Part shown: positions 36,612 through 43,250 of the stretch, in pieces | Position numbering within the stretch: the stretch's first letter is position 1 | How the letters are laid out: each line of letters begins with the position of its first letter | Origin: a bacterium | Lineage (GTDB): Bacteria > Elusimicrobiota > Elusimicrobia > UBA1565 > UBA9628 | NCBI GenBank assembly: GCA_021782205.1 | Contig: JAJXVH010000013.1 | Coordinates: 1 to 55,094 of the forward strand | Length of the DNA: 55,094 nt | Direction of reading: 5' to 3' | Translations under genes and position numbers: made by a program | The notes under the pieces: generated by a model | The model's database searches: none | What the model saw: only the letters and a program-made list of their open reading frames with translations | Told to the model about the DNA's origin: nothing

Positions 36612-37348
36612 GAGGCGCTCCGCTCCATCTTCGGATCGGCGCAGTGCCGTCGGCGGACGGCGTAGGCCGTCGCCGCGACGACATCCTGCGGCCGGTCCAC
36701 GTCCCATGTCTCGTCGAGCAAAGGTCCCGCCACGCGCGCCCCTTGCGCGCACAGCGCCCGCCAGAAATCGCGCAAGCGCGCGTGGGTCGCGGCTCCGGGG
36801 AGTCGCGCGGCCGCGTCGCGAGTCAAATAATAGAGTCCGCAGGTCGCGTGGCGTCGGACGCGGGCGTCGTCGCCGACGGCGGTCACGAAGCCGAACTCAT
36901 CGACGTCGGACCAGAGGGGCTTCTCATCGTCAACGTGAGCGGTCAGGGCCAGGCCCGCTTCGGCGCGCGCCGCGCGGCACTCGGCACGGAAGCGGGCGAC
37001 ATCTTTGGGCGTGATGAGCGCGTCAACGGTGGAGATGAGAAAGTCCTCGGATTTCTCGGCCAGCCTCAGCGCCACGAGCCGGAAGCTCTCGAAGGAGGAG
37101 GCGGTGTCGGCGGTGATAAAATCGAAGGAGAGATGCGGGAATGCCGCGCTCAGGCTGGGCGCAACGTCAAAGCCGCGGGAATTGGTCAGCACGGTCAAGG
37201 CGTCGGCCCCGGCTTGCGCAAGCGAAGCGGCGACCCAATGCGACAGCGGCCGTCCCGCGACCGGTATGAGCGGTTTGACGATTCCCGGGTAGCGTGCGGC
37301 CAGGCGCGAGCCTTCCCCCGCGGCGATGATCCCGGCGGAAAAACTCAT
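36608..37348 (-). CDS. Sugar/inositol-phosphate nucleotidyltransferase
   Basis: 246 residues with a full nucleotidyltransferase signature: AGIIAAGEGSRLA, GIVKPLIPVAGRPLSHWV with the substrate-side Lys, DFLISTVDALITP in place of the usual Gly-Asp metal motif, and the late metal Asp region ETWDVDRPQDVVAA. With Ino1 and the CDP-alcohol transferase in the operon, it is a natural candidate for inositol-1-phosphate cytidylyltransferase, i.e. the active copy of the domain that is degenerate in the transferase protein. A sugar-1-phosphate substrate is the alternative. It overlaps the HAD gene by ATGA. Confidence 0.78.
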   Translation of the reverse strand: MSFSAGIIAAGEGSRLAARYPGIVKPLIPVAGRPLSHWVAASLAQAGADALTVLTNSRGFDVAPSLSAAFPHLSFDFITADTASSFESFRLVALRLAEKSEDFLISTVDALITPKDVARFRAECRAARAEAGLALTAHVDDEKPLWSDVDEFGFVTAVGDDARVRRHATCGLYYLTRDAAARLPGAATHARLRDFWRALCAQGARVAGPLLDETWDVDRPQDVVAATAYAVRRRHCADPKMERSAS

Positions 37349-38010
37349 GACAGCGCTGCCTCCAACTCCGTTACCGAGCGCACGGTCCAGTTCTGTCCGG
37401 CCTCCGGCGCCTTATCCTGTGCGCAGACCAGGACGGACTTCATGCCCGCGGCGGCGGCCCCGCGGATGTCTCGGGCAACGGAGTCCCCGACCATCACGCA
37501 ATCCTGCGGACGGCTGTCCAACGCGCGTGCCGCGTGCAGGAAGATGGCCGGGTCCGGCTTTTGAGCGCCGAGGGCGCCGGAATCCACGACGACGCCGAAG
37601 AGATCGCGTAGGCCTTCAGCCCGCAGGAGGCCATCGAGATTCCCGTAAAAATTAGACACGATTCCGAGCCCTCGCTTCCGGGCCAGACGTTCGAGCGTCG
37701 GCCGCAGCCGCGCGCAATGCCGCCGCGATTGCGCGGCGAAGCGTGCCGCGATCTCATCCGCCCGGCCGAGGAATTCGGGAGCGAGGCCGGCCAGCAGGTC
37801 GCGCGTCTGAAGGCGCACCGTGCTTTCCAAGTCCAACCCGGACAGCGTGTGGCGGAGGGGAAGTCCATCGTCGGCGTCATAAAAAGCGCGGTCGAAGCGA
37901 TCTTTCTGGATGTCCAGGCCGAATTCCTTGTATAGAGGGCGGAAGCGCTCTATCCATGAGATCCCGTCGGCGTCCAGGGTCCCACCGTAATCAAACAATA
38001 GGGAACTCAT
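37345..38010 (-). CDS. HAD-superfamily hydrolase, first gene of the inositol operon
   Basis: 221 residues with an alpha-helical C1-type cap. Motif I is LLFDYGGTLDADG: the nucleophile Asp is present, but the second Asp (general acid in most phosphatases) is Gly. Motif II is GIVSNFYGN, motif III Lys lies in GALGAQKPDPAIF, and motif IV is VMVGDSVARDIRGAAAAG. A phosphatase for an inositol phosphate intermediate is the simplest role in this operon, though the altered motif leaves room for another reaction. It is not GmhB-like. The ATG lies seven bases after a consensus TATAAT box. Confidence 0.8.
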   Translation of the reverse strand: MSSLLFDYGGTLDADGISWIERFRPLYKEFGLDIQKDRFDRAFYDADDGLPLRHTLSGLDLESTVRLQTRDLLAGLAPEFLGRADEIAARFAAQSRRHCARLRPTLERLARKRGLGIVSNFYGNLDGLLRAEGLRDLFGVVVDSGALGAQKPDPAIFLHAARALDSRPQDCVMVGDSVARDIRGAAAAGMKSVLVCAQDKAPEAGQNWTVRSVTELEAALS

Positions 38011-38044: not shown

Positions 38045-38073
38045 TTGACAACCCCGAGCAAACCTGTTATTAA
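38045..38073 (+). promoter_or_regulatory. Sigma70-type promoter for pilMNOPQ
   Basis: A perfect -35 TTGACA (38045-38050), a 17-base spacer and TATTAA (38068-38073) give a strong housekeeping promoter on the plus strand, divergent from the inositol operon. The expected start of transcription, near 38080, is immediately before a terminator-like hairpin. Confidence 0.65.
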
Positions 38074-38081
38074 TCCTACGC

Positions 38082-38121
38082 GCCGAGTCCCCCCCGCAGT
38101 CTGCGGGAGACTCGGCTTTTT
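38082..38121 (+). terminator. Terminator-like hairpin in the pil leader
   Basis: GCCGAGTC (38082-38089) pairs with GACTCGGC (38109-38116). An inner CCCGC/GCGGG stem closes a five-base loop, and TTTTT follows (38117-38121). This is the form of an intrinsic terminator on the plus strand. It lies between the pil promoter and the pilM start at 38131, with no plus-strand gene upstream to terminate. It could be an attenuator, a 5' stabilising stem or an insulator. Confidence 0.7.
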
Positions 38122-38130
38122 AATGGGCAA

Positions 38131-39279
38131 ATGAACATGGCCGTCAACATGGATGTCGTCAAAGCGAAATTAGGCGCCCTGAAAGGGTACTCGGAGCTTT
38201 TTTTCGGTTCCAGGGATTTAATCGGCATTGATGTGGGCAGTGTCTCGGTCAAGGTCGTCCTTCTGAGGCGGGAGGGGCCGGAGTGGCACCTGAAGGCTTG
38301 GGCTCTCTTGCCGATCAACGTGCGGCCGGACTCGACGCCGGAAGAGAAAAAAGTGGCGATCGTTAAGCCGTTGCGCGGCTTTTTGATCGAAAAGAGCGTC
38401 AAGGTCCTGGATACCGCGACCGCGCTGTCGGGCAACGCGGTTATCGTGCGCTATGTAAAGTTTCCGCGCTTGACGAAGAAAGAACTGGAGGCGACGCTGA
38501 CGACGGAGGCGGAGCCATTCATCCCGTTCGACATCAACGAAGTCCAGCTTGGATTCCACATTCTCGGTGATGTCGTCGAGGACGGTCAGAAGAAGATGGA
38601 AACCGTGCTTGTCGCGGCAAAGAAAGAGTTGGTGACCGCGCGGCTCGACGTGCTCCAGGCGTGCGGACTTCAGCCGGCCGTCGTCGACGTCGACAGCTTC
38701 GCTCTTGAAAACGTTCACGAACGGCTGCGCGACCCGAAGGAAGGTGCGGCGGCGCTATGCCTCAATATCGGCCACATGGTCACGAATTTGTCGATCATCG
38801 AAAACGGCGTGACCCGCGTGGTCCGCGACGTGTTCATTTCCGGCCAGACGATGACGAAGGCGATCATGAAGGCGTTTCAGTGCGAAGCGCCGCGCGCCGA
38901 CGAGCTCAAGAAATCCTTCGGCCTCATCATTGATCCTGCCGAAAAGGAAAAGGCCCTGTCGACCGGCAATCGCGAGGCGCTCGGCGTCTCTCAGGCCCTC
39001 GGCCAGGTCGCTCGGGATCTCGTTGGCGAGGTTCACCGCTCCGTCGATTTCTACCTCTCGCAGGGTCCTGACCGCGCGATCGGCCGCATCTTCCTCTCGG
39101 GCGGCTCCGCGCGCGTGAAAAACCTCGACAAGCACCTGGCCAACGAACTCAAGGTGCCGGTGGCTGTCTTGGATCCGTTCGCGTTCGTCAAGGGCGCCGA
39201 ATCGGTACCGCAGGACCTGCGGCCTTCGTTTGGTGTCGCCATGGGTCTGGCGCTTCGGCACAACCGGGACTGGGAATAG
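38131..39279 (+). CDS. pilM: Type IV pilus inner-membrane platform protein PilM
   Basis: Actin-like cytoplasmic ATP-binding protein that binds the N-terminus of PilN and links the pilus alignment complex to the cytoplasm. The 382-residue product has LIGIDVGSVSVKVVLL (phosphate 1), VIVRYVKFPRLTKKEL, FIPFDINEVQLGF, LCLNIGHMVTNLSIIENG (phosphate 2) and IGRIFLSGGSARVKNLDKHL (adenosine). Start codons at 38131, 38137 and 38149 are all possible; no strong Shine-Dalgarno motif separates them. First of five pil genes in the canonical order. Confidence 0.94.
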   Translation: MNMAVNMDVVKAKLGALKGYSELFFGSRDLIGIDVGSVSVKVVLLRREGPEWHLKAWALLPINVRPDSTPEEKKVAIVKPLRGFLIEKSVKVLDTATALSGNAVIVRYVKFPRLTKKELEATLTTEAEPFIPFDINEVQLGFHILGDVVEDGQKKMETVLVAAKKELVTARLDVLQACGLQPAVVDVDSFALENVHERLRDPKEGAAALCLNIGHMVTNLSIIENGVTRVVRDVFISGQTMTKAIMKAFQCEAPRADELKKSFGLIIDPAEKEKALSTGNREALGVSQALGQVARDLVGEVHRSVDFYLSQGPDRAIGRIFLSGGSARVKNLDKHLANELKVPVAVLDPFAFVKGAESVPQDLRPSFGVAMGLALRHNRDWE

Positions 39280-39280
39280 C

Positions 39281-39826
39281 ATGATCAAGGTCAACCTCGT
39301 CCCGCTCGAACTGCTCGCGCGCGCGCGACAGCGTCAGCTTATTCTGCAGGCGTCGGCCGTGGGTGCCGTGGTCGCGGTCGTGCTGGCGGGAGTCTCGTTG
39401 ACTCACTGGATGGGGCTCTTCCGGCTTCAGAACGATTATAAGTATGACGAGTCGCGCCTTGAAAAGCTCAAAGCGATCGTCACTCAGGTCGAGGATTTAG
39501 AGAAATCTTCGGCGGCGGTGCACGCGCGACTGGACGTGATCGTCAGTCTGGTGAAGGGCCGCACGTTCTATCCGTTGTTTATGTCGGATTTCGCGCGGAC
39601 TGTGCCAGGCAGCGTCCGCGTGACTCAGATGACGACGATCACGCAGGCCAGCAACTCGATGAAGCTCACGATCACGGCCGTCGCCCAAGGCAGCGACGAT
39701 ATCGCGACGTGGATGCGAACGCTTCAGTCCAACGCCAATTTTCAGAACGTGGAGCTCGGGACCGTCAGCGGGACGAGCACCCAGTATATGTTCACGATCA
39801 ACGCCGCGTACACGCGCAAGCTCTAG
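39281..39826 (+). CDS. pilN: Type IV pilus assembly protein PilN
   Basis: 181 residues: a short cytoplasmic N-terminus MIKVNLVPLELLARARQR carrying the PilM-binding I-x-V-N-L-(V/L)-P motif, one membrane segment (about residues 25-45), a coiled coil (YDESRLEKLKAIVTQVEDLE) and a ferredoxin-like periplasmic domain. It pairs with PilO. It starts one base after the pilM stop. Confidence 0.92.
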   Translation: MIKVNLVPLELLARARQRQLILQASAVGAVVAVVLAGVSLTHWMGLFRLQNDYKYDESRLEKLKAIVTQVEDLEKSSAAVHARLDVIVSLVKGRTFYPLFMSDFARTVPGSVRVTQMTTITQASNSMKLTITAVAQGSDDIATWMRTLQSNANFQNVELGTVSGTSTQYMFTINAAYTRKL

Positions 39827-39828
39827 CC

Positions 39829-40374
39829 ATGGCCATGAACCTGACGAGGCAACAGCAACAGTCGATCGGCGGGGGAGTATTTCTTTTCCTCGTGGGGGCG
39901 GGCCTTTATGTTCAGTTCTTCTGGCTGCCGATCTCACAGAAGAAAGAAGATCTCTCCAATCAGATCCAAGGCATCGAGGACAAGATTTCGAAGGCCCAGG
40001 CTCAGGCGTCTCGGCTCAAGCGTCTTCAGGATGAATTGGCCGCGCTCAACCAGGAAGCGGTCGACGCCGAGAAGCGCCTGCCCAAAAATAAATCCGTGCC
40101 CGACATCCTCAACAGCCTCACCGCGATCGGAACAAAATACGACGTCGTAATCCAGAGTTTTGCGCCCGGCCCGCAGAAGAGCCAGCAGTATTTTATCGAG
40201 CTCAATTATCCGATGACCGTCAGGGGCGGTTATCACAGCATCGGCCGTTTTCTCGCGGCTTTGGCGCAAGAGGAACGTATCTTCAACGTCAAGGACATCT
40301 CCTTTCCTTCCCCCGGACCGGACGGCCAGATGCTCATCACCTTCACTTTGATCACGTACCAATATAAAGGATGA
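39829..40374 (+). CDS. pilO: Type IV pilus assembly protein PilO
   Basis: 181 residues: N-terminal membrane segment (IGGGVFLFLVGAGLYVQFF), a coiled coil (KKEDLSNQIQGIEDKISKAQ) and a periplasmic ferredoxin-like domain with LNYPMTVRGGYHSIGRFLAA, the usual PilO signature region. It forms the alignment subcomplex with PilN and PilP. ATG at 39829 is used; ATG at 39835 is equally possible. Confidence 0.92.
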   Translation: MAMNLTRQQQQSIGGGVFLFLVGAGLYVQFFWLPISQKKEDLSNQIQGIEDKISKAQAQASRLKRLQDELAALNQEAVDAEKRLPKNKSVPDILNSLTAIGTKYDVVIQSFAPGPQKSQQYFIELNYPMTVRGGYHSIGRFLAALAQEERIFNVKDISFPSPGPDGQMLITFTLITYQYKG

Positions 40375-40895
40375 TCCAGCTTATTTTTGCCGTTCTCCTC
40401 GCTCCCGCGGCCGGCGCAGTCGTTGCGGCCGCGCCGACGACGGCGGCATCTCCGGTCGTGCGCGCGTCCACCGCCGCCGTGGCGAGCAAGAACCTCGCGC
40501 CGGTCCTGCCGATGCCGCCGGCGCTCATGCTCAGCACCTACACGGTCTCGACGCTGTATACCGGCGATCAGGTCCGTGATCCATTTTTGCCGGCCTCGGC
40601 CGGCCCGGCCAAGCGCGCGGGCGGCTCGCCGGACGTCGTCGACATCCATTCGGTCCAGCTGCGCGGCATCTTGAAAGACGAAAAAGCGGATTACGCGGTA
40701 TTCACGAACGATTTCGGCGCCACTTTGATCCTGCGCGGCGGTCGTCTCTACGACGAACGCTCGCGTGTCGTGCCCGGGATCACGGGCCGCATCAAGCCCA
40801 GGCAGAAATGGGTGGAGCTCATGACGACCGACAAGGACGTGCAGCCGTTCCATCTCGGCGAGCCGTCGGCAAACGCGGGTGACGGCAATCCTTGA
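40371..40895 (+). CDS. pilP: Type IV pilus assembly protein PilP-like
   Basis: 174 residues with a cleavable signal (MIQLIFAVLLAPAAGAVVAA), an Ala-rich linker, YTGDQVRDPFLPAS (the R-D-P-F motif that marks PilP), and a small beta domain VQLRGILKDEKADYAVFTND. Classical PilP is a lipoprotein; I see no lipobox Cys here, so it would be soluble or held by PilN/O. PilP bridges the inner-membrane complex to PilQ. ATGA overlap with pilO. Confidence 0.85.
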   Translation: MIQLIFAVLLAPAAGAVVAAAPTTAASPVVRASTAAVASKNLAPVLPMPPALMLSTYTVSTLYTGDQVRDPFLPASAGPAKRAGGSPDVVDIHSVQLRGILKDEKADYAVFTNDFGATLILRGGRLYDERSRVVPGITGRIKPRQKWVELMTTDKDVQPFHLGEPSANAGDGNP

Positions 40896-40913
40896 CGCGC
40901 AGCGGGAGATACT

Positions 40914-43250
40914 ATGATCAGGAACGATTTTAAGAGAACGGCGGCGGCCCTTCTGGCGGCGGCATTGATCTGCCCGCACGCGACTTTCGCCGCGGAGGCG
41001 GCCAAGTCTGTCGCGACCCCTGCAGTTTTCCAAGGCGTGGACGTTTCCGGCGACTTCGTCGCGATCAAGCTCAGCACGGCCGTTCAATACAACAGCTTCG
41101 TCACCCAGACGCCGCCCCGGCTGGTCGTCGATTTGCTCGACACGCAGGATGGCGCGCCGGGGGCTTCCGTGAAGGGCTCGGGCCGCCTATTGACACGCGT
41201 ACGCTCGGGACAGTTCCAGAAGCGGCCGCGCTTGATCACGCGCGTCGTGCTCGATCTTGCGAAAACGGCGGGCTACCGCGTCGGTTTGCTGTCCTACGGT
41301 CTCGGCATCCGGCTGATCGACGGCAGCGAGAAGTTTCATGCCGCCGATCGCTCGGAAGAAGCCGCGACGGCCGAGGCGCCCGCCGCGCCCGTCCCCGCTC
41401 CCGTTCCAGCAGTCGCCCCGGCGCCGGTGAAGTCGGTGTCGAAGGCTCCTGCGCGGGCTCCGTCGGCCATCGCGGCGAAAAAAGCCGCGGCTCAGCCGCT
41501 CGTCGCCGCGGCCGTCCCCGTACCGGCGGCGGCTCCGGTCGCGCCGGTGCCCGTTCAGGCGGCTATTCCCATTGCGGTCGTGCCGCGCGAATCTCCGGCG
41601 CCGGTTGCGCCCGCGGTCGAATCGAAAGCCGTTCCCGCTAAAGCCAAAGTCGCCGAAGACGAAAGCATGGACGCGGCTTCCGCCGACACGCAGGGCGAGG
41701 ATTCGTCCGATCAGATCCTGGTACCCGCGACCGATTCCCGCTTCGCCGTCGAGAAGATGGCGCCGCCGACGTCGGAGAAGCTCAGCGCCGCCGCGGCGTT
41801 CAAGCGCGCCGGACTGGAGGGGGAGATGCATTCGGAGATTGCCGCCGTCGCGGAGTACTCCGATGCGAACAAGAGCCGCGTCACGTTGCCCGTTTCGGTT
41901 CACCCGGGACATGTCGATTCCGGCCGCATCGGCGGCTCGATCTACCAGGACCTGATCAGCCGCCTTCCGCGCGATCCGGTGACTCTGGATTTCGATGGGA
42001 CCGACATCCGCGACGTTCTCAAGCTGCTGGCGGCGAAGTCGCGCGTCAACATCATCTACGGGCCTGACGTGACCGGCACCTTGACCTTGCATCTGTCGGA
42101 CGTGCCGTTCAACGAGGCTTTCCGCACGATTCTGTCGATGATGCAGTTGACGACATCCCAGACCGGCTCCAACGTGCTGCGCGTGCTGACGCCTGCGGAG
42201 TTGACTAAACAGAGGACGGCCGGCACCACGATCACGAAGGTGATCCAGCTCAACTACGCCAAGCCCGAGGACGTGAAGAAGACCGTCGACGCCGTGCGCA
42301 CCGCTGAGGGCCGCCTGGGCAACACCAGCGTCGACGACAAGACGAACTCGGTGATCGTGACCGAGACGCTGGAGGGCATGACCGCCACCGAGAATCTGGT
42401 CGGCCAGCTTGACCAGCGTCCGCAACAGGTTCTTATCGAAGCGAAGATCGTCGAGGTCAACGCCAACATGCTCTTCGACTACGGCGTGCAGTGGTCGCAA
42501 TACGGCGCCCAGAACGGCTCCGTCGGCGGCCAGCAGGGTCTGAGCACGTTCGGCTCGCCGGCCGGCTATTTCAGCACGACCAGCAATCAGCCAGCGACGT
42601 CTATGGCTCCCGGCGCCAACGGCGGCCTCTTTCCGATCGGCGGCACCGGCCAGGGCACCGGCGTCCAGCTGCCGGCCGACAACATCTTCGGCGCGCTGAC
42701 TCTTGGTCGCATTACAAGCAGCTACATCATCAACGCGACGATCACCGCGGCCGCGTCTGAGGGCAAGGCCAAGATCCTGTCCGACCCGAAGATCGCGACG
42801 CTCAACAACCAGGCCGCGACCATCGCCGTCACGTCGCAGATCCCCTATGTGACGTCGAACGTTAGCCCGACCGCCGCGACCGTCACCGAGACGGTCAACT
42901 ACGTGACGACGGGCATCACGCTGACGGTGACGCCGACGATCAATGCCGATGGGCGAATCCTCCTGATCATTCAGCCCAACGTCAGCCAGCCCTCGGCGAC
43001 CGCGGCGGCCAACACGCAGACCGGCGCGCCGGCCATCGACACGCGCAACGCAAACACCACCGTGCTCGTGCGCGATGGAGAGACGGTCGTCATCGGCGGC
43101 CTGATCAGCGATTCGGTTTCCGACACGATCTCCAAGATCCCGTTCCTAGGAGACATCCCGGTGCTCGGTTGGTTGTTCAAGAAGAAGTCCCAATCGCGCA
43201 CCCGCACGGAACTGCTGATCTTCGTGACCACGAGGATCATGCCCGATTGA
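40914..43250 (+). CDS. pilQ: Type IV pilus secretin PilQ
   Basis: Outer-membrane pore for the pilus. The 778 residues read: signal peptide (ends near ATFAAEAAK), an AMIN domain (about 35-140; binds peptidoglycan), a 100-residue Ala/Pro/Val linker, an STN/N0 domain (VTLDFDGTDIRDVLKLLAAK), an N1 domain (VIQLNYAKPEDVKKTVDAVR, VDDKTNSVIVTETLEGM), and the secretin core (VLIEAKIVEVNANMLFDYGV, ILSDPKIATLNNQAA, the VPFLGDIP-type IPFLGDIPVLGWLF, ELLIFVTTRIM). One AMIN domain is seen where many PilQs have two. It has its own AGCGGGAGA-type ribosome site after an 18-base gap. Confidence 0.95.
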   Translation: MIRNDFKRTAAALLAAALICPHATFAAEAAKSVATPAVFQGVDVSGDFVAIKLSTAVQYNSFVTQTPPRLVVDLLDTQDGAPGASVKGSGRLLTRVRSGQFQKRPRLITRVVLDLAKTAGYRVGLLSYGLGIRLIDGSEKFHAADRSEEAATAEAPAAPVPAPVPAVAPAPVKSVSKAPARAPSAIAAKKAAAQPLVAAAVPVPAAAPVAPVPVQAAIPIAVVPRESPAPVAPAVESKAVPAKAKVAEDESMDAASADTQGEDSSDQILVPATDSRFAVEKMAPPTSEKLSAAAAFKRAGLEGEMHSEIAAVAEYSDANKSRVTLPVSVHPGHVDSGRIGGSIYQDLISRLPRDPVTLDFDGTDIRDVLKLLAAKSRVNIIYGPDVTGTLTLHLSDVPFNEAFRTILSMMQLTTSQTGSNVLRVLTPAELTKQRTAGTTITKVIQLNYAKPEDVKKTVDAVRTAEGRLGNTSVDDKTNSVIVTETLEGMTATENLVGQLDQRPQQVLIEAKIVEVNANMLFDYGVQWSQYGAQNGSVGGQQGLSTFGSPAGYFSTTSNQPATSMAPGANGGLFPIGGTGQGTGVQLPADNIFGALTLGRITSSYIINATITAAASEGKAKILSDPKIATLNNQAATIAVTSQIPYVTSNVSPTAATVTETVNYVTTGITLTVTPTINADGRILLIIQPNVSQPSATAAANTQTGAPAIDTRNANTTVLVRDGETVVIGGLISDSVSDTISKIPFLGDIPVLGWLFKKKSQSRTRTELLIFVTTRIMPD

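Follow-up and report, generated by a model that had tools for sequence, protein, structure and literature searches.

A terminator-like hairpin with a fixed heptamer in the pilM leader of Elusimicrobiota: a probable promoter-proximal attenuator

What is a terminator-like hairpin doing at the very start of a pilus operon transcript? The question is raised by the pilM leader in a window of 55,094 nucleotides, which is the whole of one contig (C158) in a 3.09 Mb, 177-contig assembly of an Elusimicrobiota MAG. Among the 16 named loci with a protein relative, 15 belonged to Elusimicrobia or Elusimicrobiota MAGs; the sixteenth, from a Vogelbacteria MAG, was 26% identical.

Promoter, hairpin and pil genes in the window

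The first operon gene behind the leader is pilM (38131..39279, + strand; Pfam PF11104, E 5.8e-54), followed on the same strand by the pilN-pilQ stretch (39278..43250). Genes pilN (39278-39826), pilO (39748-40374) and the secretin gene pilQ (40914-43250) were named from the gene list and a Pfam search, and the gene in the pilP position (40371-40895), without a Pfam match, by its place. On the other side of a 120-base intergenic region shared with pilM lies a divergent HAD-family hydrolase gene (37345..38010, - strand). Since this neighbour is on the minus strand, there is no upstream plus-strand gene to terminate, as the initial annotation had stated.

The predicted promoter (38045..38073, + strand) consists of TTGACA (38045-38050), a 17-base spacer and TATTAA (38068-38073), to the base as first annotated. 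Judging from the sequence and from relatives, transcription should start at about 38080. The promoter has the extended -10 form, contained in TGTTATTAAT. Allowing up to two mismatches, its pattern occurred once in the window; shuffled sequences held 0.19 occurrences on average, and 18 of 100 held at least one. The predicted terminator-like hairpin (38082..38116, + strand) has an outer stem (38082-38089/38109-38116) and an inner stem (38093-38098/38102-38107), and the U-run TTTTT (38117..38121, + strand) follows it directly. A GC-rich hairpin ending in TTTTT ten bases before pilM, whose ATG is at 38131, had also been annotated and was found as described.

Folding of 38080-38122 gave -25.9 kcal/mol (z -4.97), a value equalled by none of 200 shuffles, and a single fold dominated this leader. 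Over 38080-38200 the hairpin was retained, but overall stability was unremarkable (z -1.05). A simple promoter and terminator scan of the window reported neither this promoter nor this hairpin, because its promoter rule requires a T as the final base of the -10 element and its hairpin rule admits only one unbroken stem. The window has the layout of an attenuator: a promoter, then a terminator-like hairpin, then a gene, with no gene upstream to terminate.

A putative mini-ORF, ATG GGC AAA TGA (38123..38134, + strand), follows the U-run; its stop codon shares bases with the ATG of pilM. Such an overlap might couple its translation to that of pilM; inspection of the mini-ORF by eye for a Shine-Dalgarno sequence (SD) found none. 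Open reading frames of two to three codons occur at the same spot in relatives (L003, L004, L006, L007, L035), and in L005 the ATG at this position is in frame with pilM.

Conservation of the leader and of its heptamer

Conservation of promoter and hairpin in related genomes had been proposed as a check. Of 58 genomes, including that of the window, 54 contained pilM, and we read the upstream regions of 50 of them (30 and 20 loci, in two batches; G026, G047, G048 and G049 were left out). A hairpin with CGCCGA[G/A] and a U-run was present at 45 of these 50 pilM loci (the window and 49 relatives), so that the annotated arrangement proved to be kept. TTGACA lay at most 140 bases upstream of the heptamer in 44 of the 45 elements, accompanied by TG(N)TA in 43. 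The exception, L028 in G037, has a promoter-linked copy (L183) 205 bases further upstream, and G037 hence carries two successive heptamer hairpins with U-runs before pilM. The element was absent at L042 and L043 (both of genus g6), L048, L049 and L050. By family, it was present in f1 (outside g6), f2, f3, f4, f7, f10, f11 and f15, and lacking at a single locus in each of f5, f8 and f9. A strict automatic terminator test was passed by 43 of the 50 loci. By eye, the element also precedes pilM or a pilM-like start in G047, G213 and G216 (L099, L166, L182), three leaders beyond these 50; L099 and L166 passed the strict test, and L182 and L183, with interrupted U-runs, failed it. In some relatives, for example L047, a same-strand gene lies upstream of the element.

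The U-run directly behind the stem is itself conserved, measuring 4-9 bases across the 45 elements (interrupted in L041), and their minimum free energy folds ranged from -19.0 to -64.6 kcal/mol. In 46 of the 50 loci, a motif-blind search settled on a hairpin followed by a U-run; with its crude choice of window, only 33 of these picks overlapped CGCCGA. With a covariance model (R1), 16 of 19 genus genomes yielded the pilM leader at E values no worse than 4.1e-5; the remaining three lacked a pilM match. Of the model's further matches, 12 were read (L200-L211), and most of these lay, by eye, inside coding sequence.

The 5' arm of the hairpin contains the heptamer CGCCGAG (38081..38087, + strand), a putative recognition site. 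It reads CGCCGAG in 43 elements and CGCCGAA in 2, its first six letters being ascertained because the 45 elements were gathered by a CGCCGA search. The six bases before the U-run took 17 forms across the same elements, and the last pairing partner of the heptamer lay between 4 bases ahead of the U-run and 1 base into it. In the folds, the stretch of the heptamer region bound by the 3' arm was CGCCG(A) in most elements, GCCGAGTC in the window and L003, CGAGTCG in L022 and L023, and CCGAG in L037, L038 and L046. The pairing register was shifted with the heptamer unchanged at the window locus and in L003, L016, L022, L023, L037, L038 and L046. One arm is fixed while the other moves, and therefore the helix alone is insufficient to explain this constancy; CGCCGAG looks conserved as a sequence in its own right.

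For compensatory change, a further proposed check, alterations on both sides were seen in the inner stem only. Among 14 genus sequences (10 distinct), five cells of the inner stem had changed on both sides, which was matched by 1 of 500 shuffles. Two of the five covariation measures were unremarkable: just 2 pairs carried a change in both bases (51 of 500 shuffles), and the pair types were ordinary (194 of 500). All these scores are inflated because the sequences are closely related. In the outer stem, no compensatory change was found in the genus alignment or by RNAalifold, which over 38 sequences kept 4 pairs without any.

We considered a dispersed repeat (BIME-like) or a DNA uptake sequence and rejected both, as the 111-base element has one match in the genome and the window holds 56 copies of CGCCGAG against 41.1 expected. 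Of the 56 window sites, only the pilM copy passed the terminator test.

Promoter-linked heptamers at other genes

Scanning 225 genomes of the class for the promoter followed by CGCCGAG gave 82 sites in 51 genomes, counted by hand, and 4 with a reversed-pattern control. The order-level subset (55 genomes) gave 63 sites. There the reversed pattern had no match, and a scrambled heptamer matched 5 times, twice (G042, G019) in overlap with a CGCCGAGCG. Judged by position or translation, the 82 sites divide into 32 at pilM and 50 elsewhere. We read 43 of these 50, and 11 passed the strict terminator test (L077, L092, L085, L088-L090, L091, L098, L102, L164, L175), L175 weakly and L085 on a hairpin other than its evident first one. 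The genes behind L077 and L092 are similar, with signal-peptide-like starts; an amidase (PF01520) lies downstream of L089 and L090 and, by eye, of L088; the gene behind L098 is a response regulator (PF00072). Inspection by eye showed U-run hairpins in L100, L101 and L094, all of which failed the test. In L086 and L087, which precede similar amidase genes, the stem is retained and the U-run is weak. At the promoters of pilB-pilT-like operons (L080, G036:C8; L081, G038:C54), CGCCGAG stands right before the start region without a terminator. Many of the remaining non-pilM sites look like chance occurrences, and the wider set is enriched but loose and lineage-specific.

In the amidase leaders L088-L090, the first codons of the gene form the 3' arm and the U-run, and the stem of these g11 leaders encloses the SD and start codon. 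A conserved amidase leader was nonetheless rejected. In a survey of 30 amidase loci from 34 matching genomes (L148 was unreadable), TTGACA with the heptamer behind it was present in just 3 of the 29 that were readable (L126, L127, L130); in L154 the heptamer stood behind a weaker promoter-like stretch, and most other loci had a promoter-like stretch without it. No amidase leader was seen in the window's genus when looked for. At L128, the amidase locus of G029, a hairpin without CGCCGAG and then seven T were seen by eye in the leader and first codons.

A hairpin-first search of 56 genomes returned 20 rows, some overlapping, and 5 control matches; by eye, L112, L113, L120 and L125 lie behind a promoter-like stretch, and the others read fall within genes. 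A wider regulon within the genome that holds the window was also rejected: there the hairpin pattern matched 9 times and its control 6 times, only pilM being convincing by eye. With a relaxed promoter pattern this genome gave three matches (pilM, L105, L106) and its control none. L106 looks like a chance match. At L105 (G000:C58:91063), as at L094 (G033:C128), a CGCCGAG hairpin with a U-run precedes a ribonuclease D-like gene, assigned by Pfam for L105 (3'-5' exonuclease/HRDC) and not for L094; the L105 hairpin may instead be the terminator of the preceding gene.

Two loci, L204 (G003:C84) and L206 (G007:C31), carry three CGCCGAG copies with spacings of 18 and 34, identical in both, upstream of or at the start of similar secreted-protein-like genes; the last copy sits in a hairpin before TTTTTT. 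None of the sites at groES-like genes (L104, L170, L179), nor L181, passed the terminator test. In L104, L179 and L181, CGCCGAGTGCTA(A) resembles, by eye, a CIRCE half-site.

Probable attenuation, its alternatives and its meaning

The layout of promoter, hairpin and heptamer is well supported by comparison of sequences, and we think that the pilMNOPQ leader is probably a promoter-proximal transcription attenuator. RNA polymerase would initiate at the conserved promoter and soon meet an intrinsic terminator, about 40 bases past the start in the window and between roughly 40 and 130 in relatives. The default outcome would be the release of short leader RNAs, and full-length pil mRNA would require read-through. 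A trans-acting factor, either an RNA-binding protein or a small RNA, could bind CGCCGAG before this part of the nascent RNA has paired and block folding of the terminator, so that transcription continues into the pil genes. We infer both that termination occurs and is regulated at this leader and that the 5' arm is the target of a trans-acting antiterminator, whose existence and sign are part of the same reasoning.

The promoter-terminator unit could instead encode a stand-alone, trans-acting sRNA, with pilM transcribed by read-through or from elsewhere; in a variant, the element could be both leader and sRNA. A short unit of this kind is present in 45 of 50 loci, two sub-threshold matches to the sRNA family BcKCsr2 (see below) overlap the element, though they are taken for chance, and leaders that double as sRNAs are described for greA and rnk (PMC2965389). 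Against this, the element stays upstream of pilM across families, and in L018, L026, L039 and L046 its U-run directly abuts the pilM start. The sole constant segment is hidden in a stem, leaving no free seed, and element length and inner sequence are highly variable. We consider an sRNA of this kind unlikely.

The initial annotation had offered attenuation or a stem protecting the 5' end of the message, and of the two we favour attenuation, because a conserved U-run would be superfluous for a merely protective stem and because the arrangement also precedes unrelated genes. The stem could protect or structure the mRNA or tune translation, the hairpin being non-terminating and the U-run serving as a ribosome landing site. 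In 24 of the 45 elements an ATG lies 0-2 bases behind the U-run, and the g11 amidase stems that enclose SD and start codon, like the weak U-runs of L086 and L087, are in keeping with such a role. However, families f2 and f3 have the hairpin at a long distance upstream of pilM, and U-runs of up to 9 bases are nonetheless retained in several of them; a strong stem immediately before the AUG would sooner impede translation. We give a non-terminating stem a low probability. It is highly improbable that CGCCGAG acts at the DNA level, binding a transcription factor behind the promoter, and that the hairpin is incidental: heptamers near promoters without a terminator (L080, L081) and the triple copies at L204 and L206 would suit this, but the distance from -35 to heptamer varies from 36 to 82 bases and the pilM heptamers come with a U-run hairpin (43 of 45 by the strict test).

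Returning to attenuation, several regulator types were rejected. No segment able to pair with the terminator arm was found upstream of it in the window leader, and a cis antiterminator would not fit there, because the predicted start and the heptamer are about 1 base apart; the longer leaders of relatives were checked by eye only. No known riboswitch (GEMM or other) was recognised, as no Rfam family reached threshold: covariance models gave no match on the window at gathering score, and none at threshold on 15 relative loci searched at E up to 1. The two sub-threshold matches (L051, L036) were to BcKCsr2, a Burkholderia sRNA family, with E 0.12 and 0.76 at about half the gathering score. Antitermination by a NusG paralogue of the LoaP or RfaH type was set aside, since PF02357 was matched in 49 of 58 genomes, once each except for two matches in G019. 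The window's genome has one, and a NusG paralogue is unlikely to be the relieving protein. These searches yielded no candidate factor.

Two readings are left: a factor recognises the fixed arm, or a terminator with one arm frozen damps transcription constitutively. We prefer the former, because the sequence is fixed and is used before unrelated genes. A broader proposal, that Elusimicrobiota possess an antitermination system in which a dedicated trans-acting factor reads CGCCGAG and opens pilus and cell-surface genes, is tentative and leaves the balance of probability against it. Such a system would do without aptamer, cis antiterminator or NusG paralogue; pilMNOPQ would be its core, with secreted-protein-like genes, amidases and a response regulator as single-lineage targets.

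Protein-dependent leader attenuators include those of BglG/LicT, HutP, TRAP and ANTAR regulators, whose binding site overlaps the terminator. As proposed for the pilM leader, their site occupies the 5' side of the leader terminator and can be shared by several genes; here, in contrast, the putative site would be seven bases within the terminator arm itself. To our knowledge, CGCCGAG matches no described target motif.

PMC9262584 describes a leader terminator before pilM in Geobacter metallireducens, controlled by a cGAMP-sensing GEMM-type riboswitch. The control point is alike, a leader terminator before pilM, but the Geobacter aptamer is binding-competent from a transcript of about 77 nt, and the window leader has no room for an aptamer and no Rfam family at threshold. 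LoaP acts through a leader hairpin plus a separate terminator (PMC12691694). Leader hairpin and leader terminator likewise govern operon read-through under LoaP and RfaH, whereas here the hairpin is the terminator itself and 48 of 49 matching genomes have one NusG. Genome scans have found families of 5' terminators (rimP leaders, greA/rnk leaders, attenuator regulons), conserved before orthologous genes and sometimes common to non-homologous ones, as is the element described here; the greA/rnk models have a clear antiterminator, and none fits in the window element (PMC2965389). The main text of that paper mentions neither Elusimicrobi nor pil, and that of PMC2864571 neither pilM nor Elusimicrobi. 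Among the matches listed in literature searches on Elusimicrobia pili, riboswitches, attenuation and CGCCGAG leaders, the element was not described.

If attenuation is the correct reading, elongation and not initiation would be the step that gates pilus assembly in much of a bacterial class, through a factor of which we know no description. The near-invariant heptamer would offer a handle for fishing out the candidate factor, and the shared leader suggests further genes of the same response.
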